Part shown: positions 7,661-29,597 of the stretch, piece after piece
Position numbering within the stretch: position 1 is the stretch's first letter
Layout: the number at the start of each line of letters is the position of its first letter
DNA from: Turritopsis dohrnii
Lineage: Eukaryota; Cnidaria; Hydrozoa; Anthoathecata; Oceaniidae
Reading direction: 5' to 3'
DNA length: 64,000 nucleotides
Assembly (NCBI GenBank): GCA_027922465.2
Contig: BQMF02000235.1
Coordinates: 248,001-312,000 of the forward strand
Program-made: the position numbers and the translations under genes
The notes under the pieces: model-generated
Seen by the model: only the letters and a program-made list of their open reading frames with translations
What the model was told of the DNA's origin: nothing
The model's database searches: none

Positions 7661-7782
7661 CATTCAAAAGAGAAATAATTCAGTTAACAATAGAATAATA
7701 GTATTGCATATCAAAATTAGGTTGGTTTTGCTGGAATTAACATTAGTTAGTACGGAAATTTGATGATAAATAAAATTCTTAC

Positions 7783-7971
7783 CAATGAGGCTAGAAACAA
7801 TTTTGAGTCCTTCCTCGCGTGATTCATCGGAAGCAGGAGCATATATAGTAGATGAACGCATATATAAATGACATATACCCTCAGTGAAAGTTTTTTTTAA
7901 AAGATTTGTGGTGTATGCCACTTTTTGCAGTGAATAATAGATATGGTTATGGTTCAAAAATAGTGGGATTA
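7783..7971 (-). CDS. Internal exon of the minus-strand gene, left side of the 20-kb insertion
   Basis: Reverse-strand exon between acceptor TGTGGACAG and donor GTAAGAATT, 189 nt (2 + 62 codons + 1). It encodes a peptide with YSLQKVAYTTNLLKKTF, GICHLYMRSSTIYAP and SDESREEGLKIVSSLI. The upstream phase-1 carry matches the donor at 27958-28020. The downstream carry matches the acceptor at 6113. The family is not recognised. The element at 7998-27914 starts 26 bp beyond the acceptor, inside the intron. Confidence 0.6.
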
Positions 7972-7990
7972 CTGTCCACAAACTCCTAGT

Positions 7991-7997
7991 CCCATGG
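7991..7997. repeat. Target site duplication CCCATGG, left copy
   Basis: CCCATGG directly abuts the outer end of the left terminal inverted repeat. The same seven bases, in the same orientation, follow the right one at 27915-27921. CCATGG is palindromic, which slightly weakens the inference. Confidence 0.65.
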
Positions 7998-8111
7998 CAC
8001 CCTATTCGGTAAACTGTAAACGATATCTATCGGAATACGCTGACCAACGGAGATCGGTACTTATCAGTTTACGCTAACGCACTGTAGCTCTGGAGATAGC
8101 GGAATACGATA
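7998..8111 (+). repeat. Left terminal inverted repeat of the KDZ element
   Basis: 114 bp beginning CACCCTATTCGGTAAAC and ending GGAATACGATA. It pairs with 27801-27914 in inverted orientation with about three substitutions. Confidence 0.85.
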
Positions 8112-9569
8112 ATAGTTGGAAGCAGTTGAACCCCCGCGTATTAAACCTGCAGGAACGGGGAATAAAGACGGGAACGATTTCAATCTTCCACCATTATTGT
8201 AGACCATGTGGGATTTAAAACTAGCATATTTCTGTTGAATTTTCTGTTTTATGTGAATTTCCATTCGTGGTTACACAAAATTTGTTTGGTAGCTGGGATT
8301 ATGACTGTTGTCAGGTTTTATCCATATAATTGATGCATTGATTGGTTATGTTTTTTCAATAAAGCTTTTATAATAAGTAACAAATTTTTGACGAGCAACA
8401 ACTGTATGGAGACTGTTTTTGAATCCTTTTGTTCTCTCCATGTACTTACACATTATATTACTTATGTAAAAACACTCTTCACAATATCCTGAGAAACTAG
8501 TCTAACTGGTCTAATATATTGGTAAGCTAATCTTTTGAGACATATTCAAACATTGAATCACAACAGAATCGTCTATAGTGTTGAAGACATTGCAGTGTCT
8601 ACAATGTTGACTATTTGAAAATATTGTTTAAGACATACACAAACATCACATTTAGGCAAAGATGGAGTGTTTTTTTTTCTTATTTTTTTGATATAGTATA
8701 GTGATAATCAACATCAAAACAAATAATGTACCTTTTAGAAATCTTCTATTGTTGATTTATATTATTCCAATCAGTATATATATAATTGTATCAAAAAATA
8801 AGAACAAAATTGGGTGGAAAAGTATGGGTTATGTTTATTTTGAACCATTCATGCAAAAGTTATATTTGGTAGCTTTCATAAGCAAAGAATCTGTTTTTGA
8901 AATAAAAAATGTTGTATTTAATACAATATATATTGTGTGCTGTGTGCTGTGATTTATCTTTTCATTTCAAAATTTAAAATTTTTAGTTGAAGTAGATTTA
9001 AAATATGGAACGAGAATAAACCATGAACAGATAGGAAATGTTGGAAGATAAGATTTCATATATTATATACCATAGATTCGCCTGGAGTTGCAAACTGTAC
9101 TTCGAGTTGAAACGAAAGTAAGCAAAAGATTTTCTGGTCTCCAATTTACATCTCCTAAACTACAGACTTGTACACCAAGTACTTTAAGTTTTTTACTGTT
9201 TTACACGTGATAAAATATTGAAATAATGATGATAATATTCTACAAATGTTCAATGTTTGCACTATGATCTTGGACTAACATTGTCAAGACATTGATAAAT
9301 ATGAAGCAATTCTTCTATAAAAAAACATTTTGCATATAACTATATTATATAGACCAAAAAGCCTTAAATCTGGCAGCTATTGTATTTGAAATGATGTGGT
9401 CTCAGTTATGTTTTGATTATGTTATGTTTTATTATGTTTACTAATCTTGAATCCTATCTTTAACCTTAGGATTTCATAAAAAAGTGGTTTTCCTACTTAT
9501 ATATCACTTATTTTGTCTTGTTGGATGTGCTATGTTTATTTTAGAAATTTTTTACTAGCATAATATCCA
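8112..9569. other. 5' region of the KDZ element
   Basis: AT-rich stretch between the left inverted repeat and the KDZ start codon. I see no convincing exon. It presumably holds the promoter and any untranslated exon of the transposase gene. Confidence 0.4.
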
Positions 9570-12500
9570 ATGCCATTTGGAAAGTCCAAAAAAGGTGCAA
9601 GAGTTGTACGTTCAACTCTTCGTCATGGTAAAACTAAAACTTTATATAAGTCTTTGAGTTACCCTCGTCCTGCTGTATCAAATACAGTAGCTTCTGTAAA
9701 TGCTTCCGATATTCCAAGCACATCAAATTCTACTGGTGCAATAGAATTTGATTGTGAAGAGCACAACATATTAGAATTTTTGGTAAATAGTGTGACAATA
9801 AAAAAACGTAGATATGAAATGATCAAAGAAAAGGAACTTGGTTCCTGGGAAGTTGAGCAAGAATCCATCTGTCAGAAGTACATGTCAAAATATGAAATGC
9901 TCATGAAATGCTGTTGCATAATTTGTGGTGATGGTTTCAAAGATTCCTGCATTTGCTGTTATGATTGTGGTCCATTATCTACTTACTGCTACAAATGCAT
10001 AGATCAAGCGCACACCAATTTTTCTTTTCACGAAGCCGTTCAACTTACAGTATGTATGGTTTATTTTCCTCAATAAAAGCATTGTTAGAATGATAATTTT
10101 ATTTTGACGTTTTGCCCTTTAATGACACCATGATTGAAAGCTTTTTGCTTTCCAAGTCACCAAAAATGTATTAGTTTTAATAAACAAATCTTTCCAATGT
10201 AAGTATAACCCAATTTTAATACTATAATTTGTGAAGTTAACATCTGTATACTGAAACTCAATAACCTAAAGATAATGTGAGTTTCGTATAAGACCTTTTT
10301 GAATTCACTTATTTAAACTTTTGTTTTCTTTAAATTCAATCTGTGTTGAATCTTCAGCCAACAATATTGCAATGCTCTTAAAAATCCTAAAAATTATATG
10401 TTGTGGAAATGGTTTGAGTGGCATGACCTATATAACCCTAAAAAAATCGATGTATACATGTATAATATTATAATTAACTTTCATAGATTAATTTCGAAAT
10501 TACACCATACAGCTTCCATAGCAGATTAATCAGTCCACATGTTGGAATTTGCAGCAAAGGTTACTGGCGTTCCATTACTACTGTTTCTGAAAGAGGTAAA
10601 TATCATCAATACAATTTGGAATATAACATAATACATCTGCATGTCACAAAATAAGTCATGCACACAGATAATTGTGAATGATTTTGTTGCAAAAGCTTTG
10701 CTTTTGAAGGAACCTTTCTCTAAACATAGTCATATTGTGGTTATTTTTCAGGTGTCATTACAGAGGTGGACGTTTGTCTCTGTGCATGTGAATCAGAAAT
10801 GGCCACTCTTATCAAATATGACTTGTGGCCATCAACTCCAACTAAACCATCTACTGCTGTCTCCATGAAACTCCTTGACATGCTCATGTCACTGCAGTTT
10901 GAAGGGAAAATCTCGTTTACATCATTTATTGATGGATTATCATGGAAAACTGGAGTGTATAACTCATCATTGGTATTTTGTGATTAATTTTTGCATGCTA
11001 TTTGCATGTATCTTTTTTTAAGATTGTGGGATGGTTTTCTGAATATCCACAAAACAGTGGATGTTCTTGTCATAGTTCATGTTGCAGTTGTGGTTTTATT
11101 TTAGCTAGTTCTTAATAACTATTTTTACTTACTTAGAAACGGGTGTTAACACGTTTCATGCAAACTGATTCACTTGATCAGTATCGACTATTTCAACGTC
11201 ACTTGAAAGAGATATGGGTCTCAAAAGCTACTGGAAATGATGACATTTGCCCTGCCTGTCCAAAGGTGTGTCTAGATATCTCTAAGTGTACCTTAAATTT
11301 CAGTTACATATTCTGCAAAAGTCATAAGAATGAGATATGTATCCTGAACTGCTATCTAAATTCAGGATAATGGAAAAGTATATTATTGCATGGATGCAAA
11401 CTTTGGACTTGTTTTGAAAAATGCAGCATCTAATTCAACTGTAGCAGCAACTGATGATCGAAAATTATTTATTCCTGATGAAGAAGTAACAGAGTTTATG
11501 GCTTCTTATGACGATAAACATTTAGACAAGGTGACACTTACAAGTACAAATGCACTGCCCACAGTAATGTGATGTAAAATTACTAGTTGTAAAAGTTGTT
11601 GTTATACTTGTTACTTGTAGGATTGTAACAACTTCCAGGCTGCCAATCACATCAGATCTAAAAGAAAAAGTTCAAAATTGAGTGTAACTGGTGTTTTTGG
11701 TCTATCTTGTCGGCATGAAATTCCAAAACTTTTTCTCAACATGCGAAATGGAGAAAGGTATCCTGGTTTGTTTTTTTACCAAGTTAATAAAGTTAGTTCA
11801 AAATATTCCTGTGTTGTTCAACTGATAATCATTTCCAAATTTATACTTCTGATTTCTTGAAGACTTGGGTATGCTGTAATGATGATGAATCAGCTTCAGA
11901 AAGAGCTTTCTGGAAAAAATATCAATGTCCATATAATCTATGATATTGCATGTGTCCTAAAAAGACATCTGGTGGTATAAAAATTATTAAGTTTATTTCT
12001 GTGGTCATGGGATTCTTTAACTGTTAATTTCTTTTGTAGTCGACAGTATTCCTTCTTTTTCACTGACTGAATGCAGTTGACATGAACTATGAACACGACT
12101 TATGACATAATGACACATTGACACAAAACTTTAGAAAAGTAAGTGTACCATCAAGATTTTCCCTGATGGTAAAATATGAAATTAAACATTCACATACTCT
12201 TTTTCATATTTATATCCCACATCAAAATATCAACTAGATACATTTTATTAAGGTCTGTTTTCTTTTCCCGATTTCAGAAAAAGGGTACCCTAGAGAAATA
12301 TTCGACTTTCACGTTTGGAATTCCAGTTTTTCATTCCTATGGCCACAAAGGTGATTGTCAGGTGAGTATCGTAGTTTACTATATTTGTAACGTGTTTTTA
12401 TTCTATGATTCATTAGTACTGCAATGACAAAATGAAACCGTTTTGACACCAGGTAGAGAACTCCATCCGCCTATTGGATGGGTTTGGGCTGATGGATGGT

Positions 12501-14154
12501 GAGTTAATGGAAAGGTTGTGGTCATATTTAAGGTTGTTTTCAAAAATAACGAAAGAAATGACGCCTGCTCACCGTACTGATTTTTTGTGTGACGCGTTAA
12601 ATCATTTTAAGAAGACTAAAGTTTTGACAATAGGTATGGGTTGATGCATTTAACATTTTTGCCTTTTTATCTTTTGAAACTTTATATTTTTCTGCAAATA
12701 TCTCCATAACTTAAAAGCGTTTCTTTTCAGGGAAAACTCTAGTTAGTTGGTACCAGAAAGCGAATGCCATATTTCAAACCAGCATCGAAGAAATAGGGTC
12801 ATTGTCGAATGGACTTGATGGTAAGAATATTTTTTATCTGTTTAATAACCTATATTTGTCAACATATATTGTTCATTTTGATACTCTAGTTTGTGTAACT
12901 GACGATTTGTTGAAGGCTTGGAAAAACGAGGAAGAATCAAAAGTGAAATGGAAAAATGTTGTTTCGGAAGGTGGGAAGTGACATTTCGTGATTGAGTTAA
13001 TGAAATACAGAATGACATTATCTGTTGTATATTTTAGAGGATGGTTGGGAATGGAATTATTATAACCAACTAAAAAAGTTTTACAACGAAACATCGTTAT
13101 TGTCAGTTAGCGCGAACATCACGGAAATTGCTAAACGTAAATCGAGAATAAGTCGGTCTGAAAAATTTATAGTTTTGTATATCACAGCTTAATATAAATG
13201 TTAAACATTGCAATACAGTGAATTTGCCTCACTTCTATTTTTGTCTAGATATGACACATCTCTCTTGGTTTTTGAGCGCACCCACGGTGTAACAACACGG
13301 TGGATGGTGGCGTCTCGAACTTATCAAATTCAGCATCGCAAGTTTCTTCAACGGAACATTAAGCAAGTCGTGGAAACATTGCATAGCAGAGCGTCGGAGA
13401 GAATGATGCTTTTATCGTTGAAGAAAAGATATGCAGGTTTCTTTGATTTTCAGTTCGTTCACAATATCGTAGTGGTTTTGATCTTTGACAACAGTATGTA
13501 TTTTCACTAGTCATATTAATTGTTCTTTTGTTCACAGATGGCTCATCAATAAGTACCAGGCTATCTAATCAGATCAATAGGATTTGTAACGAAATGAAAG
13601 CTCTTGTTGAATGCTTAAACGAGGATAGAAAACAGTTCTTAACATCACCATCCATCATATTGTACAAAGACGTATTAGATGTTAATGCAGGAATATATTT
13701 GGATGTTTTGTCACCAGAAGTAAGCTCTTTCTCGAATTTAAAGTAAAATGTTCTTAAGGGTTTCTTTTGTAGTAGTTGTAACTTTTCCATTTCACGTTCT
13801 TAGGAAAATCTTACCTCCAAAGTTCCAGTGACCGTGAAGGCTAGCTTGATACAAAGTTATATTCGTAAATGCCGTGCAATTGAAGAGCGGTCATTGGTTT
13901 GTTTCGAAATGGAAAGCACTATGAATTACTTTCAAGAGTCATCTGCAATGCTTTCTGACCTTTTAGAACGCATTGAAGGTCCCTTGAAGGTCATTGTGCA
14001 CGAAAAGTTAAGAGAACAACGCTCTATTCTGCAGGAGGTCACCGAGTTGTTCAGCCGTGCTAAGAACAGAGAACTAGAGGAAGATTTTGAAATATCCTAC
14101 TTCAGCGATAGTTCATCTAATGACTCTGATGATGATAATGACTTAAACGGATAG
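9570..14154 (+). CDS. KDZ transposase with CxC2-like zinc cluster, apparently intact
   Basis: About 14-16 exons with good GT-AG sites; clear ones are 9570-10049, 10749-10973, 11137-11265, 11366-11530, 11621-11757, 11865-11974, 12278-12361, 12453-12633, 12731-12821, 12891-12970, 13040-13137, 13250-13436, 13539-13719 and 13804-14154. The N-terminus is basic, then Cys-rich (CCCIICGDG, CCYDCG, CYKC). A CxC2-type segment follows (LCACESEMATLI, LWPSTPTKPSTA). Catalytic motifs are CMDANFGL (Asp, about 11393), IYDIAC (Asp, about 11942), FHSYGHKGDCQ and DGELMERLWS (Glu, about 12510). The C-terminus is coiled-coil-like with an acidic Ser/Asp tail. I found no stop inside the clear exons. The 9570 ATG is chosen because the basic peptide opens there after an AT-rich non-coding run. 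Confidence 0.85.
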
Positions 14155-15256
14155 ATGTAGTAGTTTTTTTAAAATCTAATAGATTGGTAGGGTTTGTTTT
14201 TTCATGTAACCCCAGATGGAAATAGACTCGATCCACTTTGCTTAGCTCATAACTTGAAATTAGGATTAATGTCTGACAGAGCTTTCTTGTTGAGCGGTTG
14301 AAGTAGTCCTTCACCTTTTATCGCCCCGAAAAACGATAACTTTTTTGAGACACGTCCAGACATGTTATTTCATGTATTATATTTTATTTCATCTATATAT
14401 TGTTATGTTATAACTTCTATCTTTTTTCGGTTCTTTTCATTCTTTAGTGATGTCTAAAACAAGGAATATGACTTCTAAGTTTTTGATGGAGTTTGTTTTG
14501 TGCGAATAAAATTGAATTACTTGTTCATTCACCACTACACTCTTTATTATCTTAAGGCGAAGTTGGAACAAAAGGAGTCTATTGTGTGTGCTGTGAGTTA
14601 TCAGTTTCGCCTCTCGTGTAGATGTGCTGTTTTGCGATAAGTTCAACTCGCCTTTTTATACTATTCAAAAGAGTTCTCGCGGATAAAGCCTGTTTTACGG
14701 CAAAGTCGGGTCATCTGACATTATCTTTGACAGATCGGGTCAATCATTTCGTGATCTTAACAAGACGTTTGCGTAAAGTTTGTGGTTTGCGAGACAGTAA
14801 AAGTTCCCAGGATGCAGTGTTTTTGTACCAAACTTCGAGTCATTGCACGTGAGTGTTCCCACATATCTCTCGTAGATCGGGTCGAGCTTTTCGCGATCTC
14901 TTGACATGACTTTGGTATAATATTTGAATATAACGTAATCTCAATGACTCGAATCACTATGGAACTCCTATTGTTTCGACTAAACTAAAATTAGAGTTAA
15001 CCAAAACTAATTTTGTCGTCAATAAAATGAAGAAGGGACCACGAAACACTTACCAGTTTAGAGTTGTGGGCATTCTACTGTTTGATGATTGGAAACCCAG
15101 TTTATAAAAATATCTTATTGAAATAAGGCCGAATTGTATCTTTTGCTCTTGAAAACAGAGTTACACAAATCTTTCTTGCAAGTCGGACATTTTTTATTGA
15201 TTTAACTCCCACTCGATGTTTCCGTAATTATTACAGATAAATTCGTAGTTGACATT
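14155..15256. other. Spacer between the two KDZ-element genes, with a direct repeat
   Basis: Contains two copies of an AGATCGGGTC...GATCT-like motif near 14731 and 14874, and an inverted pair (GAGTCATTG / CAATGACTC) near 14838 and 14941. It is the likely promoter region of the gene starting at 15257. No exon seen. Confidence 0.4.
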
Positions 15257-18200
15257 ATGACTGAGCCTCCAAAGAAGAATATCAAGAAAACTCCTGAACA
15301 GTTGCAGATTTTAGAGAACCTTTATTGTAAGGGCATGACCAACTATAAAGCTGATAATGTGACTGCGCGTGCTCTTTTGCAAGATGCCGTCGCAAACACT
15401 GGGTTAAGGGAATCGCAAATAAAAGTAAGTTAAAAAGGTTTATGTGGAGACGAGACGACGGTTAGCTTCTTTCGAAATATCAATTTTAATTGCCTGTCTA
15501 TGGTTATTATTAGGATTGGATTGATAGCAAGAGGAGAAAAAACCAGAACGTCAAACCAACCAAAATTCCCGGAAGAAGATCTTCGGGATTTGATATTTTT
15601 CGAAAGAAATACATGAAAGGTATGTTCAGTTTTGGTGATATCGTAAAACCTATGTTAACATAAACCTAGAATGTAGTTCCGGACAAACAGTTATAAAGTA
15701 ACATTTTTATCGATTTTTCTGAGGATTCATTTTGAAATCTTTTTCTAAAAGTCAATTGCGTTTCAACTTAGAAAATGATGTAGGAATAGCAGAAAGCAAT
15801 CATGCTTGGAGTTTGTTAACTGATGAGGAAAAGGAAGAGTATCGGAGTGAAGCAAAGGAAGTGGAAAAACCTGTGTTTAGCAATCTTCCAACAGATGCAC
15901 AAATTTCACATATTCGCAAAACACGAAACAAGATTGAAACTTTGGTTTGTATTTGTTTTGTCAAAATTCGACCTTCGTTTTGAATATAAACGTATATATT
16001 TTCTAACCAAAGAGTCCACACATGTTGTTTGATCGTATCTCGTATATATTGCTACTAGTATCCCGGGTAAAAACTTTTTACCGAACTTAACTTCGAAAAC
16101 ATTAGGTCAAATCCACCATTTCCGTGTACATACTCCGTGACGAAAAAATAAATCATAGAATCGCAACTCAAAAACATCCCAGGCGGCGTCGCTCGCCACC
16201 CATGTTCAGTATGCGTTGTGTTGTGAAATTTAACTCGTGTAAAAGTTTCTACAGGCATTAATTTTTTAATTCATTTCTTACATTCAGAAGATTAAAAACA
16301 GAAACAAATAGCAACATGGCTCAGAATAATATATCTATACGCAGAAGAGAAGTAACTTTAATGTAAAAAAAATGGCAATATATAACACAGAACTGTTTAG
16401 CCAGACATACGAAACCAAACATTACAAAATGTTTATTCAAAACAAATTGATACCTTCCAACTTTTTCTTTTGTTCCAAAGTTACTACTCGACTGCAACCA
16501 TTAATGAATTTTTGAAATGATATGTAGTCTGTTCTTCCCAAAACCATCAACGTCATGATTAAAACCATGAGTTTCATTTCTTTATGCTTTTTTTATTATT
16601 ACCTAAAAAATTAATACTTGAATTGTAATACCGAAAACCTTAACATGCTATAACAATATTGAAATAAAAAATAAAACAGAAAGAAAGAAAAAACAAAAAG
16701 AAAATTCAAGTACGCATTTATCCTAAAGATAAAAATTAAAAACAAAATTTGGTCTATAAAGTCAACCGATACTGTGAGTCAATACGGGTTCACTCAACAC
16801 TGGAGCTGAACAGAATAAAGACTTTTACCTGGCATACACATCCAAACATCAAATTAATAAAAATAATTGAAACAACAAAATGCCCTGCTTTGACCAAAAC
16901 CATAATTGAATACCCAGAAGATATTAAAAGCAACAAATAAAAACATAATGCTAAACTTATATACCTAGCAAGTATGTATGTAGCAGTTAACATAACACAA
17001 AATAATGAATGCCGTAAACAAATATAAACTGAAGAAAAATATACCCCAGCAATGCTTCTTTTTTGTAGTACAATCGCAATGAAATACATAATCCATTCTT
17101 TTCTTAAATAACCTTCTCAACATACCATGATTTTCATTTATACATTTATAAATTTCGTTTATAAATAGCTACACTTTTTCTTTTCTGACCTAAAAGAAAA
17201 AGATTTCAGTAAAGAACAGCTACAATACTTACTACTACTGCAACCATATTTAAGCAAACCAAAACAAAAGGCATAAATGGCTGGCAGAAAGGCATGCAGA
17301 CAAAGCATCAAACATCGTCAATAGATACAATTTTACAGCATAACACGTTCCCTACTTCCACAGCCATGAGAAAGGAAAACAGTCATAGCTGTGGGACCAT
17401 TTTTAATTGATCTGTAAATAAATAAATCAAATCAAATCTTCTTTGCTAACTATAAAAATAATAATAGCGCGCGTTACCAAAACAAATTACTCTCGTCTTC
17501 GATTCGACTAAACGAAAGAACTCATATAATAAGATATCTATTCAAAGCTATAGTATTTAATCTTTCAAAACTAAATTAAAACCATTCCTTACTGTGTAAA
17601 GAAACATCATTTTGTTCTGCATTTCTTCACTACACTTTCTTCTGTATAGCGATATTTGATAACTAAAACGTAAACAAACATTTAAATACATTTAAATACA
17701 AATGCATATACCTAACTTGTTCTTTTATGAAAATAAAATAAAAGCTTTATAATAATACCTTTTGTTGGTTCGATCTTTCTGCAGCTAATTTTTAAAAACT
17801 TCACTGCACTTCTTCTGTATATCTAAACAAACATTGTAAACAAACAACTAACTCACTTACACGTGCTACCCGATAATAAAACGTTTTATAATAATAACAA
17901 TACCTTCGTGCATACAAACCTGTGTTTCTTCGTCAGTTCTTTCGTCGATTTGATAAAACAATCAAATTTAAATTAAAATATTCGTATACAAAAAGAAACA
18001 CGTCTTCTTCGCGAAGTTTCTTGCTCACGAAATGATCGTTGACAAATTTCGAACGATTAACATTGCATTGCTCGCACTCCTCCAAAGACGTTTTTCGGCT
18101 GATTTCCACTGCGCAAGCCAAAAATAACAAAACGGAGGAGCATATACTAATTGCGAAAAATCAAAAAAATCACTCTCGCTTTGGCGTGGTTTTACGACGA

Positions 18201-20431
18201 AAAGGGAAAAAATAAGAAGGATTAGACCGTGAAAAAAAAACAAATATATCACTCTCTAAAATAAAAGTGGTATGCACAACGCGGATTATTATAATAAGAT
18301 ATCTATATATTAAAAGCCGATTCTCTGTCTGTCTGTCTGTTTGTTTGTTTGTTTGTTTGTTTGTAAGTCACGCAAAATGGTAGATTGAGTTGTGAGCGAA
18401 ATTATTTCTTTTTTTGTGTGCGACGTGAGTTTGAAGCAAATACATTGCGACCCCAATCGAACGTGACTTTTTTTGGCTGATGAACTAATAGGAATAACGT
18501 TTTGTTTTTATTATTATTGTCAGTTTTATATTCCACGTTGACTTGGCTTTGAAAACAATACATCAACTAAGAAACTAACTGATTAAACATTTTGGACAAA
18601 AAGCAGCAGTGGCAGAACGTGACAGCATGTGCGGTTTGCCAGTGTATTCTAACGCTTTCCTGACTGTCTGAGACGGGTGAACTTTTTTCGAACAATCGAA
18701 ATGTTTAAAAACCGATAGGTAAAAAAAAGAGAATCATGAAAGAAAATATTTTTTTTTTACTTTTGTCTTAATAGTTGTCTTAATTTCGTTTAATCGATTT
18801 CTTTTAATCTATTTTAATCTGATCGAACGTTTTTTATTCACTTCATTCATTTGGCACGTGCATTTTTTTCTCCTCCCGTGTGATCTTTTTAAGAAGAGAA
18901 ACCATTTTTTCACCTACTTCTGACAGCACCCATGTTAGAGCGCGTAAAACAAAAGCTAATAATAAGTTGAAAAGTTTTTTCTCTCTGCGTTTTGAGTGAA
19001 TTGTTAAACTGATACTTGATTGGTTTAAAATCGTAAATAAAAACCACGTGAAGTTCACGTTCGGAATGCATTGTGTAAAGCATTTTAAATGCGACCGCGA
19101 CAATGAACGGCTGAGTTAATAGCATGCAAGATTTGAAACACCAGGAACGTATTTCTCTTCACGTGCAAACGAGCTTTATTAAGCGATAAAGCCAGCAGCA
19201 AAGGAAGTCTTATCAATGGTTTTAAAGGGCAATAATTTGGAGCAGGTGGTCATACAACGCAGGCTGAATATGGGCGGCGAGCGACGCCGCCTTGGCGGCT
19301 AGTTATTATTATTATTAGTGCCGTGAAATGGAAACTATGGGTGTTGAACTGTTCGTCATGGATATAGATCCTGGCAGGAAGGGTAATAAAGTGACGGTAT
19401 ATGGAAGACAAAAAGGAATTGATTTTGTGGATTCTCAAAATGATTTAGAATGGCGCTTTGCATCACATGTGATGGGTATGTATATTTTTCAATGTTTACT
19501 ATGAATCATGGCGGTGTCGAGCTAGATATTTGAAAATTAATACAAATTACTACGATAAAACTTTAAACTTTATACAGACAAATTCCCTTGTTTGTTCAGG
19601 TGAGACTATCGAATCAGCTCAAGAAACAAAACACTTACGCAAGGAAGTGAGCAATTTGTTGAACCAAAAAATTTGTAAGCATTGATTAGTTTTGTTTTTC
19701 TGTTTGAATTCAAGTCTTTCTGAAGAATCCATTTTCTCATACATCATAGATTTAGCCACTGGAGGGAAACGAACAACAGTACCATATAAGCAAATAGAAG
19801 ATGGAATAGTAGTAGTCAACGGTCTTCCAGCGGGTTTCGTATTCAAGAAGCCAAGTAATTGTTCGAAAACGGAGCTAGAAATCCTAAGGAGGAACATAGA
19901 TTACATTACTTTCACAGGTATCCATAGCATTCTGAAGTTTCTTTTCGTGCGTAGTCAATATCTCGGAGGATTTGTTTTGATTTCTTTGCAGTCACCAAAG
20001 AAACAGACGCACCAACACCTACTCCGGAAGCAAATCTGCCTCTGGAACAGGTTGTCGTCACTGAAAATGCAGATTTTGCTTTTGACGATCGGAATACACG
20101 TGAAGAACAGCCTCCTGCGAAGAAAAAAACAAAAGCAACTCCCTTTATTGCTATCGATGAAACAGAACGAGCAGATCTTGATAGTGACATTCAAAAGCTA
20201 GGAGTCGATGACCTTGTACCGAATCAAGCGGGAAAAGTTGTTACCCTTCGTGAAGTTTTGGAAAAATCTCGCAACGACGAAGGTTACGTAGAAAAAATTG
20301 TAGAGCGAAGGGAAGGCAAAGGGTGCCAACAATATCTAGTCAAATGGATTGCCTATAAAACTTGCACCTGGGAACTCGCCGATAATTTACCAAAAGCAGA
20401 CTTAGAAGATTATTTCCTCAATAAGACTTAA
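15257..20431 (+). CDS. Homeodomain-like + HMG-box-like + chromodomain accessory protein (444 aa)
   Basis: Seven exons: 15257-15424, 15514-15619, 15724-15944, 19319-19475, 19600-19674, 19750-19917 and 19992-20431. All have GT-AG sites and consistent phase; the total is 1335 nt, ending in TAA. Residues ~10-66 form a homeodomain-like three-helix pattern: TPEQLQILENLY, then GLRESQIKDWIDSKRRK, with WI.SKRRK where classical homeodomains have WF.NRR.K. Residues ~75-150 look like an HMG box (SGFDIFRKKYMK, then AWSLLTDEEKEEYRSEA). Residues 396-444 are a chromodomain (GYVEKIVERR, YLVKWIAY, CTWELADNL) with the usual cage aromatics. Inferred role: chromatin or DNA targeting partner of the neighbouring KDZ transposase. 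Intron 3 carries two Helitrons. Confidence 0.82.
16179..18299 (-). mobile_element. Non-autonomous Helitron, family A, degraded 3' end
   Basis: Read in reverse, the 5' end begins TCTTATTATAATAATCCGCG at 18299 and matches the start of the autonomous Helitron at 35237. The 3' side has GGCGAGCGACGCCGCC (about 16197-16182), the same terminal hairpin as other Helitrons here, but the terminal CTAG is lost. No RepHel coding remains. It lies in intron 3 of the homeodomain/HMG/chromodomain gene. Confidence 0.7.
18302..19302 (+). mobile_element. Non-autonomous Helitron, family B, complete ends
   Basis: Starts with TC (TCTATATATTAAAAGCCGAT) after an A. Ends with a GC-rich hairpin, GGCGGCGAGCGACGCCGCC, then TTGGCGGCTAG, before a T: the classic Helitron A^T insertion with CTRR 3' end. 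Near its 5' end is a GTTT microsatellite. The 44198-54728 copy is the same family. No coding capacity was recognised. Confidence 0.85.
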
Positions 20432-20812
20432 TTTTGAGCCAACTTCGCCAGCTCACCAAACTGTTGCATCTCTAAATTAGGTTTTCTCATTGCCTAAAAA
20501 CAACAGAAAGTTGTTAAGACCATTTAAGCACGGCGAACAAATTTCCTTCTCTCTTGGTTGTATAATGTAAGCAACTCCCGCGAAATTCCCTGACAGGACG
20601 TTTTTAACAATCAGATAGATTTTCACTTTTGCCTTGTTATCAAGTTTCGCTTTGTTACTATGTTTTCTATTGTTTTATTAATTACATATATGTATTACTT
20701 GGTTCACAGTGGGATATTTAAAATTTTTAAACGAGGTTGTATTCTTAGTGACTAAGCCATAGCGCGGTTTTTAAATGATTAAATAGATAACTAAACGCGC
20801 ATGTTAATCGAA

Positions 20813-21150
20813 CACATATTTTAGTAGTACTATGCCGTCTTAAAGATAGAATTTGTGAAATGTGTTTATTTTTTGGAGGTGCATGATGGGACTTGTCAAC
20901 GAAGGGCTTTAAATCAATGTCTTTATAATAACACTTAAGTTCGAAAACGTTCGGTGCATGTGAAGATTAGGATATTGCATCCAAAGCGAACTAACATTTC
21001 AAAAACAAACACGCATTTTCATCAAACACATATTTAAGTAGTACTATGCCGTCTTAAAGATAGAATTTGTCAAATGTGCTTATTTTTTGGAGGTGCATGA
21101 TGGGACTTGTCAACGAAGGGCTTTAAATCAATATCTTTTTAATAACATTT
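20813..21150. repeat. Direct duplication of a ~120-bp unit
   Basis: A unit running from CACATATTT through AGTAGTACTATGCCGTC and GGAGGTGCATGATGGG to GGGCTTTAAATCAAT occurs at about 20813 and again at about 21027, nearly identical. It lies just downstream of the chromodomain gene. Function unknown. Confidence 0.85.
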
Positions 21151-21189
21151 TGAAAAAAAAAATTGACCAAAAATTGTGATTGCAATTTG

Positions 21190-21306
21190 TTGTAACAGTG
21201 CTGATGAAGTGGTATGTGATGATGAAGAGGAGCGGAAAAATTTCCCGTTTGATTTTCATAATAGCATTACACCCTTAGGTATGCCCCCTCATTGTTTGAA
21301 ACTCTA
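21190..21306 (+). pseudogene. Helitron helicase fragment
   Basis: About 110 bp closely matching 40208-40322 in the helicase exon of the autonomous Helitron, for example AGTGCTGATGAAGTGGTATG and CCTCATTGTTTGAAACTC. It is isolated and has no flanking helicase sequence, so it is a truncated or captured fragment. Confidence 0.8.
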
Positions 21307-21499
21307 AGTTAGGACAACTTTGATAACATTATAAAGTTTTCATACACAATTCATGGTGACGGAGTGTCAATGGGACTTGTAGTATAATGATGTAGTATTA
21401 TACGGTCCTAAAAATGGATATCGTGTAATGGTAACCATCAATGAGTGTTATTAGATATCATATCTGTAATAGAAGCTGAAAATGTCTCTGGTATGTTCC

Positions 21500-21606
21500 A
21501 AGAGATGATGAAACTATTTTTAATTTCACTCAGATTAGTTGGGTACAGCATGGACAAGAGGAGTTAACTGGTGCCGTGCCGCAAGTATTGGCACGCCTTC
21601 AGTTTG
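21500..21606 (+). pseudogene. Short coding remnant or terminal exon of unknown family
   Basis: An open frame ends at TGA (about 21606). It encodes a peptide with RDDETIFNFTQISW and HGQEELTGAVPQVLARLQ, more protein-like than its surroundings. No acceptor site was settled and the family is not recognised. Confidence 0.3.
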
Positions 21607-22091
21607 AAGCATGAAATCAGAACACGTTTTACTGAAGAAAAATTACCTAACTTTAGTCTCACAAAGATTCCAACGACGTTGCCTAAACAGCCTAGGTATA
21701 TACATATTTTTTTCAAAAACACCTATCCAACTTTTTGGAAATTTCTTAAACGACTGTGGAGAAAGGGGAAGAAAAATTAAAGCGAAAATATTTTCAAATG
21801 TCTTCTTGTCTTAAGTGAAGTTCAAATAACATTGATTGAAAATCGAAACTAGTTCTCTAAAAAAATACTCAAAATTCAAAATAGCAGAAAACTTCAGAAG
21901 AAATTAGAGTACTCGCAAAAGATGAATTGTTGCAAAAGTTTGACCAAACTTGATGCACAATATAGTTAAAAAAGCAACTTCTGTGTTTTCACGTGACGAG
22001 GATAAAAAGAACCTGCTAAGTTTAATTTCAACTGGACAGAAGATGCCGCATCAGAAAATCTTCCTGGAAATTACTTCAACTTTTGATCTTT

Positions 22092-22239
22092 AACATCGCC
22101 TCGTTTCTAATCATCATAATACTGACGTTTCTTAGCATGATAAAACGATATGATGGCATGAGGGTTATAAACTTTTATGATCACAGTTGTCATGAAAAAG
22201 AACGTCATAATCATAATGTTTCGAAACGAGGCGATATTT
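22092..22239. mobile_element. Small MITE-like inverted repeat
   Basis: ATCGCCTCGTTTC at about 22094 is mirrored by GAAACGAGGCGAT ending about 22238. The inner sequences (TCATAATACTGACGTTT / AACGTCATAATCATAAT) also pair imperfectly. About 145 bp in total. Confidence 0.6.
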
Positions 22240-22389
22240 GTAAGTAATGAAAGTGATTAATGAAAAGGTCCAAAATTGCGTAACTCTTTTTCCACCACGA
22301 CATTTTCTGCCTAGCAGAGGTTCAAATAATATATAAAACATCTACGGAATTTCTCTATCATATAACTTTGCCTTCGATACCGACGAAAA

Positions 22390-22494
22390 TTTTCGTTGAT
22401 CGTTCGTGCATGGGAGGTAACGCTTTCTAGCTGCTCAGCCTCGATTCCATGTGCTTTCTGAAACTGCATAGATAGACTATCGTAATATCTATGG
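22390..22494 (-). CDS. Possible minus-strand exon, unknown
   Basis: In reverse, an acceptor-like AACCATAG precedes an open frame with YYDSLSMQFQKAHGIEAEQL and ESVTSHARTINENF, then a possible donor (GTCGGTATCG). Codon use looks protein-like. It could belong to a leftward gene of the KDZ element; low confidence. Confidence 0.3.
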
Positions 22495-22774
22495 TTGTTT
22501 AAAAACATGTAATTTGTGTGTCAAAACAAAATGATCATCTGATACACCTATTACTACAACTTTTTTATCTGTCAACTTACTTATGACAAATCTTGCAAGG
22601 CAAAGGTATTGTTTGGCCGGATTGAAATATTTTGGTGAGACGATGATAATAGTGTACTTGATGGGACTTGAAATAATTCACGACGTTCTCAGGAACATAA
22701 GGGTAAGTGTCAGCAAAATCGCGATCCACCTCGTCTCCGATGTGTGTACAACCTTTAAATGGGCATGATACTAA

Positions 22775-22903
22775 TTACATTTCTTTTGTATTTCGAAACT
22801 CCAATTGAACTACATCAATAGAACCCAATTCATCCACTAGATCGCATTTTATTTCCCGCTTTCTTTTCTTTATAAACTTCAATAACCACGTTTCTTCCTG
22901 GAT
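22775..22903 (-). CDS. Possible terminal exon of a minus-strand gene
   Basis: Reverse-strand exon after acceptor TTTGAAG, 42 codons then TAA. The peptide includes ETWLLKFIKKRKREIKCDL and DELGSIDVVQLEF. A second reading frame is also open for ~28 codons and would join an ATGGCGTC exon near 23033, so the correct frame is unresolved. No family is assigned. Confidence 0.3.
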   Translation of the reverse strand: MQEETWLLKFIKKRKREIKCDLVDELGSIDVVQLEFRNTKEM

Positions 22904-22909
22904 CTTCAA

Positions 22910-25900
22910 ACAAAATCATTGACAAAAATAACTAACATAACATTAAAAACAATTTAAGTAGTTTAATACCTCTCATTATCATCTTTTACATCCTTGCATC
23001 TTGAAAGGTTTACCTGGAGATACGAGAGACGCCATTAACAAAAGAAAATTCCATAGTTAAATGTTACTGCATTCCGCTAATGCATAATATAAGCAGTTTA
23101 CAGAATGTGCGCTTTGAAATAACCCCTTTTGCTTACCTGGGTAAAAATTGCGATCCCCAGAATAGGACATGTTTATTTGGTGAATAACTTTCGGGAAAAT
23201 GATAAACACAATACAGAAATTTACGTAAACGAAAAACAAACTGTAGCTGAAACAAAAGCAACAACAACCTAGCATTAGTTACTGACGATCACCATATAAG
23301 TATAGCTATGTACTATACTGCAAGCAATGTTAAATAAAGACCTTTTAATTCATCACTTGCAATCCATATAAATAAATTGCAAATTACAGCGAGGAGATTA
23401 GTGGAAAAACTAGGAAAGATATCTATCTAAATAGATATCTGCTCAACTGACACTACTGACACAAGGAAAAACAAAAGCATATAAGCTACAACTAGTTCAG
23501 ACCTCCCAGAGCAAAATCAAGTAATTTTTTTATGAATTTAGGACAATTTTAGATAGTATTTTTGGACATTTTAGGGCAAAATTTGAGAAAATTTAGGACA
23601 AAGACTAAAACGTTAGGACAACTTTAGGACAATTCCCAAATTATGGACCTGTTACAGTAAACATATCTTTATTTAAACATATTAAACCATCAAAAGATAA
23701 TCAAGAGTAGATATATATATATAACGAAGAACAACATAAAGTTTCCCTTGGCTTGAGTGTTAATAAGCATAAACAACTATCAAACCTTGTATAAGTGCGG
23801 AAAAACCTAAAAATTAGGGTAAAAACAACAAGAAAACAAATGATTGTCTGTTATCTACATTTTGAGTAAAATGAAATTGCAAATGATTCGACTTTGTTAA
23901 AAGCTCGTTCTTTAGCTTCCTGATCATTACACAGGCCAACAAAGAATTTGCCCCAGATACATAAGTAGTTTTTTCACGCTGATTTCAAAAATGAAGTCCA
24001 TTTTTTGCTAACTCCTACCATGTTTTTGATATCGTTTTTCAGTTTTTTCAAATTTTAGCCAAATCCACGAATTTTAGGAAACAAATATCATACGTTTTGT
24101 TTATTATCTCAATTAAATACCACTTGAGTCTTTTAAATTGGACACTTCTAACAGTTTATATTGGCAAAACTTTTTTTATGCTTTCTTCACTTTGCTTATT
24201 AGGTGTTTTTTTTAAAAAAGTTTTCTAATTTTTCGTTTCTGAAGTTCATTTATCACATTCTTATATTCTTGTCATTCTGCCTTTTTTTTCTGACTTTACC
24301 ACTGTCTGAGTGTAGATTACAGAACGTCTGTAACCATTGTATTTTCTTGGTCTGGGCAATGAAAAACTGAAAGCTGGTATTTTCGGTGGACCACAGAGTA
24401 GAAAATTACGTAAAGATACAAATCTGGTTAATTCAAAGAACAGTGTAGAAGCAGCAGCCTAGAATGCATTTACAGAAGTCCTCAAAAAATTCCTTGGAAA
24501 TGTGTAACACATCAATTACGTATAAATAATTCACAGTTTAATTCAAAGTTTCCATGGACTTGGTTGTAACATGAGTACTAAGGTACATATTCCCTTTAGC
24601 TATTAAACAAATTTCCAGAAAATTTAGGTGACGTGAGTGAGTAAGAAGAAAGATTTCATCAAGATATTAAAACAATGGAAGAATGATATCAAGGACGATA
24701 GGGACGAAGTTATGATGGCAGATTTTTGTTGGTCGTTAAAACAGGGCTGTAGCGATACTCGTCATTCATCAGAAAATCAAACAAGAGAAAGTTTATACCT
24801 CAATACTGTGCTGTTTCAACAATGCTTTTGATTTTTAATGATAAAATCCAGGACTTTTCAAGGGCTATTTTGAAGTTTTTCCAGGACATCTTACAAGGAC
24901 AATCCCAACACTTGGAGAACATTTTAGGATACGAGACAATAATTGAAATGGTCTGATAACGCAACTGATATATTAACTGATTAGCAACAACTCTCAGTAA
25001 TCAGTAATGTCACATATTTTCTTTTGCAGGACTGTGGTTTAACACAATTAAACTAAAATCAATACTTCAATTCAATTGATAGCATATATTGTTGAGAGGC
25101 AGAACTCCAATCAAAGACAATCTATCAGAGATCATAGTCAGAAGAAGCTTTGACTAAAATTAAAGAAACTGACTATATAATTTATATTCATCCAATTAAT
25201 TGGGGTGCGTAAATAGTAAATCTTCAATATGCAGTCATGTGTGTAAATATACTTTTTTTGTTGCAGAAATATAATATAAAAGAAAGAAAGTATATATCTC
25301 TATTATTGTGTTGTTCACTGTTGTCACAATAAAAACAATTATGCTCTTCACTGTCAAACAGAAATGTATAATAGGAGCAAAGGAGAGCTGGCCAGGCTGC
25401 CATCCCATATCAACAAAAAGAGGCTTTTCAATGTTATTATTACCACATAACATAAAATAAATTTGTGGTATTCACAGTCCAAAGAAACAAAAATAACAGC
25501 AACAAACGAAAGCCAGGCTCACACCCTACCTCAAAAAGCATTACACGTCTCACTCTGCTTGATTGTTAGAGTTGTTACAAAACATTCTAAAAAAAAACAA
25601 ACAAACAACAAATCTTTGGGTGCAAATAGTGTCCCAGAAAAAAACTTTGACCCTAAATTAAAACTGATTTAAAAGTTATGTATCATGTAATTATGATTTA
25701 TCTTTGAGCTACAATATGAAAGTCTAAAACAATTCGTCTAGGCCCATCATTACAGCTGTGAAAAGCATACCTTTTTCCAAAACGATCATTGAAAAAGTAT
25801 TTACATTAGCATAAAATATTAAAAGAAAACAAACATCATTAAAATCTTTGCAAATTAAAACTAAAACTTGGCTGTCATACATGAAGGTTGTAATGACATA

Positions 25901-26160
25901 TGTCTCTCTTAATAAAGTCAGCTGTATATGACATCCCATGTGTGCATTTCAAGGTAGAGGATTCTTGGGAAAATATTGAAATAATAGATTATTAATCAAG
26001 GCATCCAGTGTGAATCCCATTCATGTGAGTGATCATTTGTTGATTCAGGTTCTACATTATAAAATAATTTTGTTGTCTGTATATTCGATCCAAATCTGAA
26101 ACCTGAATCTTAAACATCTTGTATTATTGTTTACCAATGCAAATTTATCAAAGTATGGAG
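22910..26160. other. Non-coding interior of the KDZ element
   Basis: AT-rich sequence with patches of degenerate TTAGGACAA-type repeats (23540-23645) and CAGGACTTTTCAAGG-like repeats (24850-24930). A short plus-strand frame at 24637-24831 contains VMMADFCWSLKQG but has no supported gene context. I see no other feature. Confidence 0.4.
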
Positions 26161-26164
26161 AAGT

Positions 26165-26290
26165 GCATATAGCATAGTGGTCTAAGACCTTGTATTTGTA
26201 TGCTGATTTGAAGGCAAGTGTATATAGACAAGTTTTTGTAAATTAATATTCCACAACTATGAAAATAACTGGCTCGAACCCACATCAAAA
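26165..26290 (+). repeat. tRNA-derived SINE-like or degraded tRNA sequence
   Basis: TAGCATAGTGGTCTAAGAC (about 26170) resembles a Pol III A box and D arm of a Leu/Ser-type tRNA. GGCTCGAACCC (about 26271) resembles the B box / T loop. The spacing is wide for a tRNA and no clean cloverleaf forms, so a SINE head or pseudo-tRNA is likelier than a functional tRNA. Confidence 0.4.
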
Positions 26291-26998
26291 AATATGTTGC
26301 TATTAGGCAAATGTTGAAGAAATCCTTGTGCCTGAAACAGAACTTCATTTGTCATTAGTTTTTAGTATATAAATATATAACAGAAAAAAGGAAATGTTTG
26401 TTGGATTCTTCTTTGGACTCTTCATTTGGTGCCCTTTTATGTTCTTATTATTGAAATTGTTCTTAGCAGAAACTAGTTTTAACGTTTATATATCATATAA
26501 ACATAAGTCATGCTCAGGATATGCTAGAAGTCATTGATGATTTCATCCATGATTAATGACAGAAAGTCATCTACTGTATAATTCACGTGTTATTTGTTGT
26601 TTGGACTTACTGGCTCTAAAAGTGGCATTTGCTTTTCTCAAGTCTTCAAGTTCTCTAAGTGTCATTTTTTCTAATTCATTTCCAATTATATAACCCTAAT
26701 TCTTAGATCATTATCTGGAGATTTTATACCCTCTCACTGCCTAATTTACTAACAGCCTTACTAATTCTGAGCAGCCACTGTGTGTAAATTAAGAACACCA
26801 TATAATACACTGTCAATCAAAACTATAACTCAAATTCAGCTTTGACTGATCTCCCAACAGTTATGCCTGCATTTGGTGAGTATGGATGTATATTTTCGTG
26901 TGTAATCCTTTTTGTGTTAGGAAAGTTATTCGTAATTTAGAAGCCGGATGGTACTAGACTTTAATTTGAAGTATTTGTAATTGTAAGTAATTGTATAT

Positions 26999-27079
26999 TA
27001 TTAAATCAAAATGATTTTATTGCATACAGTACATATATAATATAAGTACTGTATGCAATAAAATCATTTTGATTTAATA
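26999..27079. repeat. Perfect 34-bp inverted repeat (palindromic hairpin)
   Basis: Arm 26999-27032 (TATTAAATCAAAATG...CATACAGTAC) is the exact reverse complement of 27046-27079, with a 13-nt AT loop. Pairing extends a few more bases with one indel. Possibly a tiny recent MITE or an RNA hairpin. Confidence 0.9.
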
Positions 27080-27225
27080 AATATACCATTTACTGTTTAT
27101 ATTCAGGAAGAATTTACAGTATTAGACCTTTTTGCTTATATATAAGAAACTGTTAAGCTAGGAGTGGCATCTTCCTAGATCATATTATACTTTTAAAGAA
27201 GGCATAATGATGACCAACCAAAAAA

Positions 27226-27327
27226 GGCACTATTTCCTTTTCGTACCCCCTAACACTAAACTTAGCCCTAACCCTGACCCTAACCCTACCTCTAATCCTA
27301 TATAGGGTACGATAAGGAAATAGTGCC
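27226..27327. mobile_element. 102-bp MITE-like repeat with telomere-like core
   Basis: Inverted ends GGCACTATTTCCTTTTCG (27226) and CGATAAGGAAATAGTGCC (ending 27327) enclose CCTAACCCTGACCCTAACCC-like repeats. The CCCTAA units are internal and degenerate, so this is not a telomere. Confidence 0.75.
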
Positions 27328-27800
27328 CCAAAAGTTAAACATATATATATACATATACAATATGAAGAGGTTAATTTAATCAAAAACAAAAACATAGACT
27401 AAAAATCAAGTTTAAACAACAAAAAGGAAACCGAATATTTCTTTTTTCACCAACCAAAACAGCATATCACACCACACACCACAAAAACACCAACAAAAGT
27501 AAAATTATATATACACACACACACACACAACACACTCACACATCACCCACCAAATAACCACAGTAGCAAATAAAAACAGGACACTATCAGTTGTTAATAA
27601 CTACATCAAATAAATAAAATGTGAAAAGAAATCTTCAAACTTAGATTCAAAAAATTCTAAAGCGTCAGAATGCATAGATACTTCGTCTTTTTGTTCACCA
27701 AACCAACAATACATGATCAACCGCATTTGCAGCCGCCATTTTGATGTTCTCACCGTGTCAGCACGGTCTCTACAGACACGACATGAGCGGAAGCGAGAGT

Positions 27801-27914
27801 TATCGTACTCCGCTATCTCCAGAGCTACAGTGCGTTAGCGTAAACTGATAAGTACCGATCTCCGTTGATCAGCGTATTCCGATAGATATCGCTTACAGTT
27901 TACCGAATAGGGTG
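27801..27914 (-). repeat. Right terminal inverted repeat of the KDZ element
   Basis: 114 bp, reverse complement of 7998-8111 with about three substitutions. It is followed by CCCATGG (27915-27921), the right target-site copy. Just inside it (about 27733) is a CAAAATGGCGGC motif on the minus strand, resembling a YY1-type initiator. Confidence 0.85.
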
Positions 27915-27957
27915 CCCATGGCTGCTGATACTAAACAATTTCGATAAAATATCTTAC

Positions 27958-28020
27958 TTTCCGCACTTTGTAAGGCACGGTTTTCAGCAGCGGCATGAAC
28001 TGACCAATCTCCTGAAGAGT
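27958..28020 (-). CDS. Internal exon of the minus-strand gene, right side of the 20-kb insertion
   Basis: Reverse-strand exon between acceptor GAATATTTAG and donor GTAAGAT, 63 nt, phase 1 in and out. It encodes SSGDWSVHAAAENRALQSAE. Removing the element and one CCCATGG leaves a ~62-nt intron joining this exon in frame to 7783-7971. Confidence 0.6.
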
Positions 28021-28284
28021 CTAAATATTCATTAATACTAAGAATAGCATAACATCGTTTTATTTTGAATTTTATAACAGAGAAAAACAGTACCCTCAGA
28101 TATTATTTTATTATATTATTTCAACATATCATATTTCAAACAAATATAAAATATCCTGTAATTACTTTTTTTACCTACAGATTATTAGTTTAAATGTGCA
28201 ATAAACAATCAAAATACAGATTAAAAAGGTAAATAAAAATACCAAACAGGATGGATGTATACTGTTCTGTTCTTATGCACATAC

Positions 28285-28341
28285 CTGAATTGTCTTTGTT
28301 TAATTCCTCGACATCGTTTTCAGTTGAAGTGGCTAATGTTT
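28285..28341 (-). CDS. Internal exon of the minus-strand gene
   Basis: 57-nt reverse-strand exon between acceptor TTTCTTACAG and donor GTATGTGC, phase 1 in and out. It encodes TLATSTENDVEELNKDNS and splices in phase to 27958-28020. Upstream exons are uncertain. An open stretch at about 29270-29441 (after acceptor TTTTTCAG; PLLSWIQFSEPEAQNQIL, then an acidic tail) is a candidate. Confidence 0.55.
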
Positions 28342-28606
28342 CTGTAAGAAATATCAATATAATAATAAGTAGATGAAGAAAGAACAAAAATGTAATGAAT
28401 GAATGGGTGTTTATCTAACAATTTCAGACCATCTAAAATATGCCATATATGGTCAATAACGTCATAAATGTTTTGATTTAGATTCATAATGGCGGGAAAG
28501 GTATGGAATAGGCAGCATGCGTTGGATACCGAGCGAATTTAGATTTTGTGATGAATGGTAATAAAACATGAAGTGATGTTGCGGCCAGGAAATACGAGGA
28601 AGCATA

Positions 28607-29189
28607 CATTCCAACTCTCCCGATATGAGCGGGAGACTCCCGATCTCAAGATGCTAATCCCGATCTCCCGATGAGCCACATGATCTCCCGATATCAGGAT
28701 ATAAATAGGCCACAATATTTCAAAGTGTGCAAATTTTAATGGCAAGCTCGCAGTTCACCACATCACTCCACTATAGTGTTGTAAGCAAAGCGACAAGCAA
28801 GCGCCTGCTACAAATTGCTTGCTGTTTAGTCGGTGCCGGCATTATAGTAAAAGATAACGTATGAAAACCAACCTCGTTTTTAGGGTTGCTTTATGTTTTC
28901 TGACACAAAATGATAACAAAATAAAATTAAAAAAAGCATCCGAAAGCAAAATTGAAAGGAAAATTTTGGAGAATTCTAAAAGTTCAATGAAATGGTTAAT
29001 GGCGGCAGTCTAGTGTTGCTCATCGCTGACTAGTTTAAATCTCAAAATTATTCTTCAAAATGGCATTTTCCGGTGTTTTAGACAAAGATATATTCCAAAA
29101 TTCCCACCTCCACCCCAACCATGGTTGGCTCTCGGGTAGTCACTAAACTTAGCAAAACTCCCGATATCAGATTCTCTAGGGTTGGAATG
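28607..29189. mobile_element. MITE-like element with CCCGAT-rich left end
   Basis: CATTCCAACTCTCCCGAT (28608) is mirrored by TCTAGGGTTGGAATG (to about 29189). The left 90 bp contain repeated CTCCCGAT motifs and a matching CCCGATATCAG sits near the right end. It lies in what is probably an intron of the minus-strand gene. Confidence 0.55.
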
Positions 29190-29597
29190 TCTGAGGAAGT
29201 TACTTTTTATAATGAATCTTTTTATTATGAATCTTTTCCACTGTCATTTTATCCCTCCTTGTCTGCGCCCCAACCCCCCAACCCAAGACTACTATACTGA
29301 ACATTTCTTTTCTTTGTTTTCTTTCTAGAATCTTCTTCTTCTGGAACCTCTTCTTCTGTGCGTAGTAGCTGATTCTTAAGAATTTGATTTTGTGCTTCAG
29401 GTTCGGAGAATTGAATCCATGAAAGTAATGGTTGTCTTGCTCTGAAAAAGAAATCCAGGTAATAAAAATTTCTCATTTATGCAGCAGAACAATTCTCACG
29501 ACATGATTCTCCTTTAGGCCTTAGTTTTTGCACCTTTTTATTATTTATAGATAGCGGAATAAACAGGGGCTTTTCAAAATTTCGTAATTTTTAATAA

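Follow-up and report, generated by a model that had tools for sequence, protein, structure and literature searches.

Does a stretch of about 20 kb in the genome of the jellyfish Turritopsis dohrnii move as a single DNA transposon, and does the second gene that lies within it belong to the transposon? We addressed this question in a 64-kb window (contig C235, positions 248001–312000; coordinates below are those of the window unless another contig is named), and searched the entire genome of 435,911,712 bases in 891 contigs for related copies. The element found in the window has exact ends, a 7-bp target-site duplication and uninterrupted paralogous sites, and it belongs to a family with multiple two-gene copies in which both genes are under constraint. 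It is very probably a complete giant transposon of the KDZ superfamily, which moves as one unit with its transposase gene (gene 1) and a dedicated accessory gene (gene 2).

Ends and target site of the element

The element proper extends from 7998 to 27914 (19,917 bp), beginning with CACCC and ending with GGGTG. Its ends are 114-bp terminal inverted repeats (TIRs), recovered as inverted arms of 117 nt (7996–8112 and 27800–27916) that were 97% complementary. The word CCCATGG occurs just twice within the window, and both occurrences abut the element ends. These results bear out the original prediction, made from the letters of the window, of an exactly bounded element with paired 114-bp repeats and adjoining CCCATGG copies. 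A chance pairing of the TIRs was ruled out by the 97% agreement over 114 bp together with the seven pairs found in the genome.

We then searched the genome with a 500-base query in which 250 bases of each flank were joined at one CCCATGG. Among the nine matches, two were the halves at the window site itself, three were partial (C328, C162 and C241) and four were continuous. The continuous, uninterrupted sites were 99% (C382), 98% (C343), 94% (C445) and 93% (C67) identical to the joined flanks. Empty sites with a single CCCATGG had been anticipated, and the junction carried one in three of the four and CTCATGG in the fourth (C445); one copy of a repeat therefore served as the insertion target. 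This target repeat covers approximately 6217–7998 and 27915–30259 in the window and recurs at least at C382, C343, C445 and C67. Across the junction of the joined flanks, the open reading frames (ORFs) were all short and none was identified, and disruption of a host reading frame by the element was rejected, also because the insertion site lies inside a repeat. An Rfam search of the window gave no match.

The proposed extent of 19.9 kb was right for the ends, while approximately 3.2 kb of it proved to be a later insertion in intron 3 of gene 2. The copy on C194 aligns at 97% on either side of this insertion and is without it, and the insertion has inverted arms of its own (16178–16219 and 19254–19295). 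The large span of gene 2 was consequently rejected as ancestral, given that intron 3 contains the later insertion. Part of the inserted sequence recurs near the uninterrupted site on C67.

The KDZ transposase and the gene 2 protein

Both genes were predicted on the forward strand, confirming that the cargo gene shares the orientation of the KDZ gene. The gene models are predictions from DNA, and one intron of gene 1 in the subfamily of the window copy (subfamily A) was set by comparison with a second subfamily, B. Models from the subfamily B copy on C501 agreed closely: gene 1, built separately, gave 873 aa with an identical exon pattern, and gene 2 gave the same seven-exon pattern and the same length of 428 aa.

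Gene 1 matched the Pfam KDZ domain (PF18758) with an E-value of 7.3e-48 (163.6 bits against a cut-off of 26.6) and CxC2 with 2.8e-10 (40.8 bits against 27), whereas CxC1 scored 26.4 bits, slightly under its cut-off of 26.9. D323, D441 and E495, which we take to be the acidic catalytic residues of the conserved core, were the same in all 20 KDZ proteins aligned, in agreement with the earlier call of a transposase with catalytic motifs. The 18 database relatives came from Hydractinia (60%), Clytia (42–48%), Priapulus (38%), amphioxus (34%) and fish (mostly 31–34%). In a tree of 20 KDZ sequences, the T. dohrnii and Hydractinia proteins grouped with a support of 1.0 and the hydrozoan group was joined at 1.0. 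A second KDZ transposase fragment was found at 1186–1539 (forward strand; Pfam KDZ 6.1e-13), 34% like gene 1 over the matched part, and the ORFs next to it at 2910–4325 had no Pfam match.

Gene 2 had been described as a homeodomain, HMG box and chromodomain gene. The chromodomain was verified by a Pfam match above the cut-off (Chromo, 2.3e-8), while HMG_box_2 (0.052) and the homeodomain fell under the Pfam cut-offs. These two calls are based on a phmmer match to the yeast MAT-alpha2 homeodomain (6.2e-4), on the AlphaFold model of the Clytia relative of gene 2, in which helices at 13–63 and 79–124 are confident and the remainder, including the GTF2I part, is of low confidence, and on a Foldseek ranking with GTF2I domains at the top and HMG boxes and homeodomains next (no E-value below 0.001, many probabilities near 1).

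Two features went beyond the first reading, namely a third gene in subfamily B (see below) and a GTF2I repeat in gene 2. The latter was detected by Pfam at 1.1e-8, with 35.7 bits in subfamily A and 29 bits in subfamily B against a cut-off of 27, and the Clytia relative scored 26.4, slightly under it; a single stretch was matched in each of the three. Among solved structures, the best phmmer matches of gene 2 were GTF2I domains (4.4e-9), along with HP1-type chromodomains (5e-5). The gene 2 chromodomain is related to HP1: at the positions that we take to be the aromatic cage, two residues are conserved (the Trp and the second Tyr), and Gly stands in place of the first Tyr, with a Tyr adjacent. 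The sole database relative of gene 2 was P0001 of Clytia hemisphaerica (44% over 66% of the query), which is without the chromodomain, and a profile search with three gene 2 sequences again returned this protein as the only match among the best 7995 candidates scored.

The right arm of the element holds a 144-nt direct repeat (20793–20936 and 21007–21150) and a 41-nt palindrome (26998–27080). Apart from the TIR, it matched the right part or the genes of subfamily B only over short stretches of 46–64 bp.

Features of the element, with window coordinates
Feature	Position	Strand	Basis
Left target-site duplication, CCCATGG	7991..7997	none	One copy at three of four uninterrupted sites, CTCATGG at the fourth
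Left TIR, begins CACCC	7998..8111	+	Inverted-repeat search, TIR genome search
Gene 1, KDZ transposase, 15 predicted exons, 874 aa	9570..14154	+	Splice model, Pfam KDZ and CxC2
Gene 1, exons 1–8	9570-10049, 10487-10595, 10752-10972, 11137-11265, 11366-11530, 11621-11757, 11863-11971, 12278-12361		
Gene 1, exons 9–15	12453-12633, 12731-12820, 12890-12970, 13038-13155, 13249-13436, 13538-13719, 13804-14154		
Gene 2, homeodomain / HMG box / GTF2I repeat / chromodomain (predicted), 7 predicted exons, 428 aa	15257..20431	+	Splice model, Pfam, phmmer, Foldseek
Gene 2, exons 1–7	15257-15424, 15514-15619, 15772-15944, 19319-19475, 19600-19674, 19750-19917, 19992-20431		
Later insertion of ~3.2 kb in gene 2 intron 3, outside the ancestral unit	16055..19302	none	Absent from C194
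Right arm, no convincing gene	20432..27800	none	Repeat search, alignment to subfamily B
Right TIR	27801..27914	-	Inverted-repeat search, TIR genome search
Right target-site duplication, CCCATGG	27915..27921	none	Word search and uninterrupted sites

Copies in the genome, linkage and selection

The window TIR had 27 matches in the genome, of which 14 form seven convergent pairs (C235, C405, C186, C501, C305, C366 and C542). Six of the seven pairs enclose both genes, as expected if other TIR-bounded copies carry the same cargo. The seventh, C405 (4.4 kb), has the ends of the window element at 97–98% with the middle missing and is an internal-deletion derivative. Subfamily A consists of C235, C405 and C194, the last having lost its right part. 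Subfamily B consists of C186, C501, C305, C366 and C542, which are approximately 97–99% alike in most aligned blocks, with C148 and C351 assigned by gene matches. The longest alignment block between the two subfamilies was about 74% identical. A query with the subfamily B TIR likewise gave 27 matches and no further pair. C513, which has both genes and a TIR 82% like that of subfamily B, may represent a third, older lineage. Unpaired matches comprised four on contigs that carry the two genes (C194, C351, C148 and C513), four short or decayed ends (C448, C547, C521 and C361) and others on C53 (two), C215 (two) and C328.

Target duplications were found in three of the seven pairs (CCCATGG at C235, GCCTATG at C501 and GAGGTTT at C305), at unrelated sites and with no evident common motif. 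Their absence from near-identical subfamily B copies possibly reflects assembly joins or recombination between copies; joins are possible because the reads of this assembly, with an N50 averaging approximately 9 kb according to the accessible text of its report (PMC9835754), are shorter than the element. Common insertion flanks were shared by C351 and C501, by C521 and C361, and, on one side over approximately 600 bp, by C542 and C305, and the independent insertions are therefore fewer than the contigs. Among the five paired subfamily B copies, the KDZ gene was open in four (all except C305) and gene 2 in three (C501, C305 and C366), so that C501 and C366 are open in both, as is the window copy by model.

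Searches with the two proteins gave 63 matches on 11 contigs for gene 2 (61 of 61 candidates scored) and at least 103 matches on at least 13 contigs for KDZ (best 52 of 197 candidates scored). Ten of the 11 gene 2 contigs also carry the KDZ gene of the element. On the other one, C145, gene 2 is a remnant whose neighborhood aligns with subfamily B element sequence, and no KDZ sequence was found within the 7.5 kb examined around it; as a decayed remnant amid element sequence, C145 was rejected as a host ancestor of gene 2. KDZ without gene 2 occurred, among the matches listed, on C547 (exon 1 only), C178 (palindrome fragments) and C423 (a more distant KDZ, 58% alike). Wherever gene 2 was found in the T. 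dohrnii genome, it belonged to the element or to a remnant of it. A GTF2I profile search, which is a weak search given that the domain is split by an intron, matched the genome only inside the element, at one place on C542 and one on C235, and had no match in 14 control genomes.

We measured nonsynonymous (dN) and synonymous (dS) substitutions per site between the window copy and C501. For KDZ, dN was 0.10 and dS 0.68–0.72, with a dN/dS ratio of 0.148 by NG86 and 0.137 by YN00; for gene 2, dN was 0.13 and dS 0.65–0.72, with a ratio of 0.196 by NG86 and 0.175 by YN00. Purifying selection thus keeps both genes across the two subfamilies.

Subfamily B carries a third gene on the opposite strand, an intronless frame of 355 aa starting without Met (15037–16101 of the C501 element; Pfam Pkinase, 5.1e-23). 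It was 99–100% identical in seven contigs (C186, C351, C366, C501, C148, C542 and, for residues 1–255, C305). Two 82% fragments were found in C178, and the other 15 of the 24 matches at 1e-12 were only 26–28% alike. The gene was not among the genome matches at 1e-12 for C513, and a decayed kinase hidden in subfamily A was rejected, since tblastn at 1e-3 matched none of C235, C194 and C405. Nucleotide identity between copies (99.1–100%) was not clearly above that of neighboring noncoding stretches and thus gave no evidence of selection on the third gene. When aligned with MARK3, the motifs that we presume to be HRD and DFG read HNH and had Ile for Asp, respectively, with the presumed VAIK-type Lys retained, and the product is predicted from these residues to be a catalytically dead pseudokinase. 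Specific to one subfamily, it would add to the accessory genes of DNA transposons. C178 (232000–237500) holds a palindromic derivative with KDZ and kinase gene fragments mirrored on both arms. Elsewhere in the genome, kinase-like frames of approximately 335–359 codons (e.g. C104, C61, C25, C34, C96 and C785), several in near-identical pairs or sets, were 26–28% like the predicted pseudokinase and are possibly other mobile kinases.

Role of gene 2 and relation to known elements

In the proposed mechanism, the KDZ protein would use RNase-H-type D/D/E chemistry to cut at the 114-bp TIRs and would join the element to a target cleaved with a 7-bp stagger. The gene 2 protein may act in trans as a chromatin adaptor, with its putative homeodomain, HMG box and GTF2I repeat binding DNA and its chromodomain binding a modified or silenced chromatin state. 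The element would thereby be kept expressed despite host silencing or be directed to particular chromatin. We favor anti-silencing or expression control over targeting, although the evidence does not separate the two. Chromodomains of chromovirus integrases steer insertion to chromatin, the gene 2 chromodomain is HP1-like, and the window copy is nested in a different repeat that has five or more copies, all of which would suit a gene 2 protein that mainly steers insertion to chosen chromatin. This is a realistic though less probable role, since the three target duplications are without evident motif and one nested insertion gives no statistic.

Gene 2 could instead be a host gene that was captured by chance and has no role in the life of the element. 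Accessory genes without known function are described as frequent on giant DNA transposons in the accessible text of PMC12477816, and Clytia has a gene 2 relative without demonstrated KDZ linkage. We nevertheless consider such a passenger unlikely, since gene 2 is under purifying selection in both subfamilies, which differ by about 0.65–0.72 substitutions per synonymous site, the genome search with the gene 2 protein revealed no independent host copy, and the GTF2I profile, within the limits of that search, matched nowhere in the genome outside the element. Finally, the pairs without duplications, the common flanks and the short reads would fit repeated 20-kb units made by segmental duplication, recombination or assembly joins, but exact 7-bp duplications at three unrelated sites make this highly improbable and the uninterrupted paralogous sites refute it for the window copy.

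Several observations weigh against a complete transposon with a dedicated accessory gene. The two-gene linkage is known from the T. dohrnii genome alone, and no KDZ relative from Clytia was listed from the 1,787,385-base contig that carries its gene 2 relative. Among the copies, the support from empty sites covers the window insertion alone. The original prediction had named TIR copies without an inverted partner or with differing content as evidence against it, and the outcome was divided: 13 of the 27 matches were unpaired and four of the seven pairs (C186, C366, C542 and C405) had no matching 7-bp duplication, while the other 14 matches were paired. Gene 2 is broken in C186 and C542, the KDZ frame in C305 and both genes in C194. 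Lastly, where HP1 has three cage aromatics, the gene 2 chromodomain has only two at the aligned positions.

The element has the features of the KDZ superfamily, with a KDZ domain, a cysteine cluster ahead of the core, acidic residues, and TIRs with a 7-bp duplication. Algae and fungi already offer examples of giant KDZ elements and of accessory genes on KDZ elements, and the T. dohrnii unit is a variant of that kind. As far as the accessible text of PMC12477816 describes them, the giant elements of Ectocarpus, which reach 30.3 kb, and an active one of 31.7 kb in Chlamydomonas are similar in size, nested insertions of other elements and accessory genes, but have algal hosts and accessory genes mostly of unknown function, with no such domain set. 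As stated in the original prediction, fungal KDZ elements carry chromatin genes: according to the accessible part of PMC12730594, these are TET/JBP genes, and the fungal Kyakuja elements share with ours a cysteine-cluster KDZ transposase, 7-bp duplications, CA...TG ends and a chromatin-type second gene. The same text describes the fungal families without TIRs, in contrast to the 114-bp TIRs here, and the jellyfish accessory protein is unrelated to TET/JBP and has an animal host. Zisupton and Cryptococcus KDZ1-3 share the KDZ domain and long TIRs (139–241 bp in KDZ1-3), but have duplications of 8 bp (Zisupton and KDZ1) or 4–8 bp (KDZ2 and KDZ3) rather than the 7 bp at three sites here, and no homeodomain, GTF2I or chromodomain gene is named for them in the accessible texts (PMC12810828, PMC12730594). 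The T. dohrnii element thus resembles Kyakuja in its duplication length and CA...TG ends, but not in its TIRs, and we assign it to no KDZ branch.

The literature searched, which mostly did not cover subscription journals, contained no report of a GTF2I or chromodomain gene on a KDZ element from an animal. The present element is exactly bounded, giant and animal, with several copies, uninterrupted sites and an accessory gene selected across two subfamilies. By sequence and fold search, gene 2 shares the GTF2I repeat with the TFII-I family (GTF2I, GTF2IRD1 and GTF2IRD2); whereas TFII-I proteins carry several I-repeats, gene 2 has one, apparently fused with a homeodomain, an HMG box and a chromodomain, and is borne on a transposon. 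Chromatin-linked accessory genes of DNA transposons would thereby be widened beyond the fungal and algal TET/JBP and methyltransferase genes described in the accessible parts of PMC12730594 and PMC12477816. TFII-I is called vertebrate-specific in the part of PMC10721858 that is accessible, and a GTF2I repeat on a jellyfish transposon makes the origin of this factor testable. GTF2I repeats might be a mobile-element domain that KDZ transposons of early-branching animals carried, with vertebrate TFII-I derived from a domesticated relative, which we regard as a doubtful, speculative scenario. The transposon link of GTF2IRD2, a fused hAT transposase in the accessible account (PMC10641963), is a separate story.

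Other features were detected in the window outside the element. A Helitron was represented by an ORF of 1179 codons at 37226–40762 (forward strand) with Helitron_like_N and PIF1 helicase domains (Pfam). The same ORFs were duplicated in opposite orientation at 45611–47254 (reverse strand) and 47140–48159 (forward strand), identical over long stretches and with no strong Pfam match, and are possibly a palindromic element. Another ORF at 62626–63321 (reverse strand) contained a BEN domain (Pfam, 1.2e-6).

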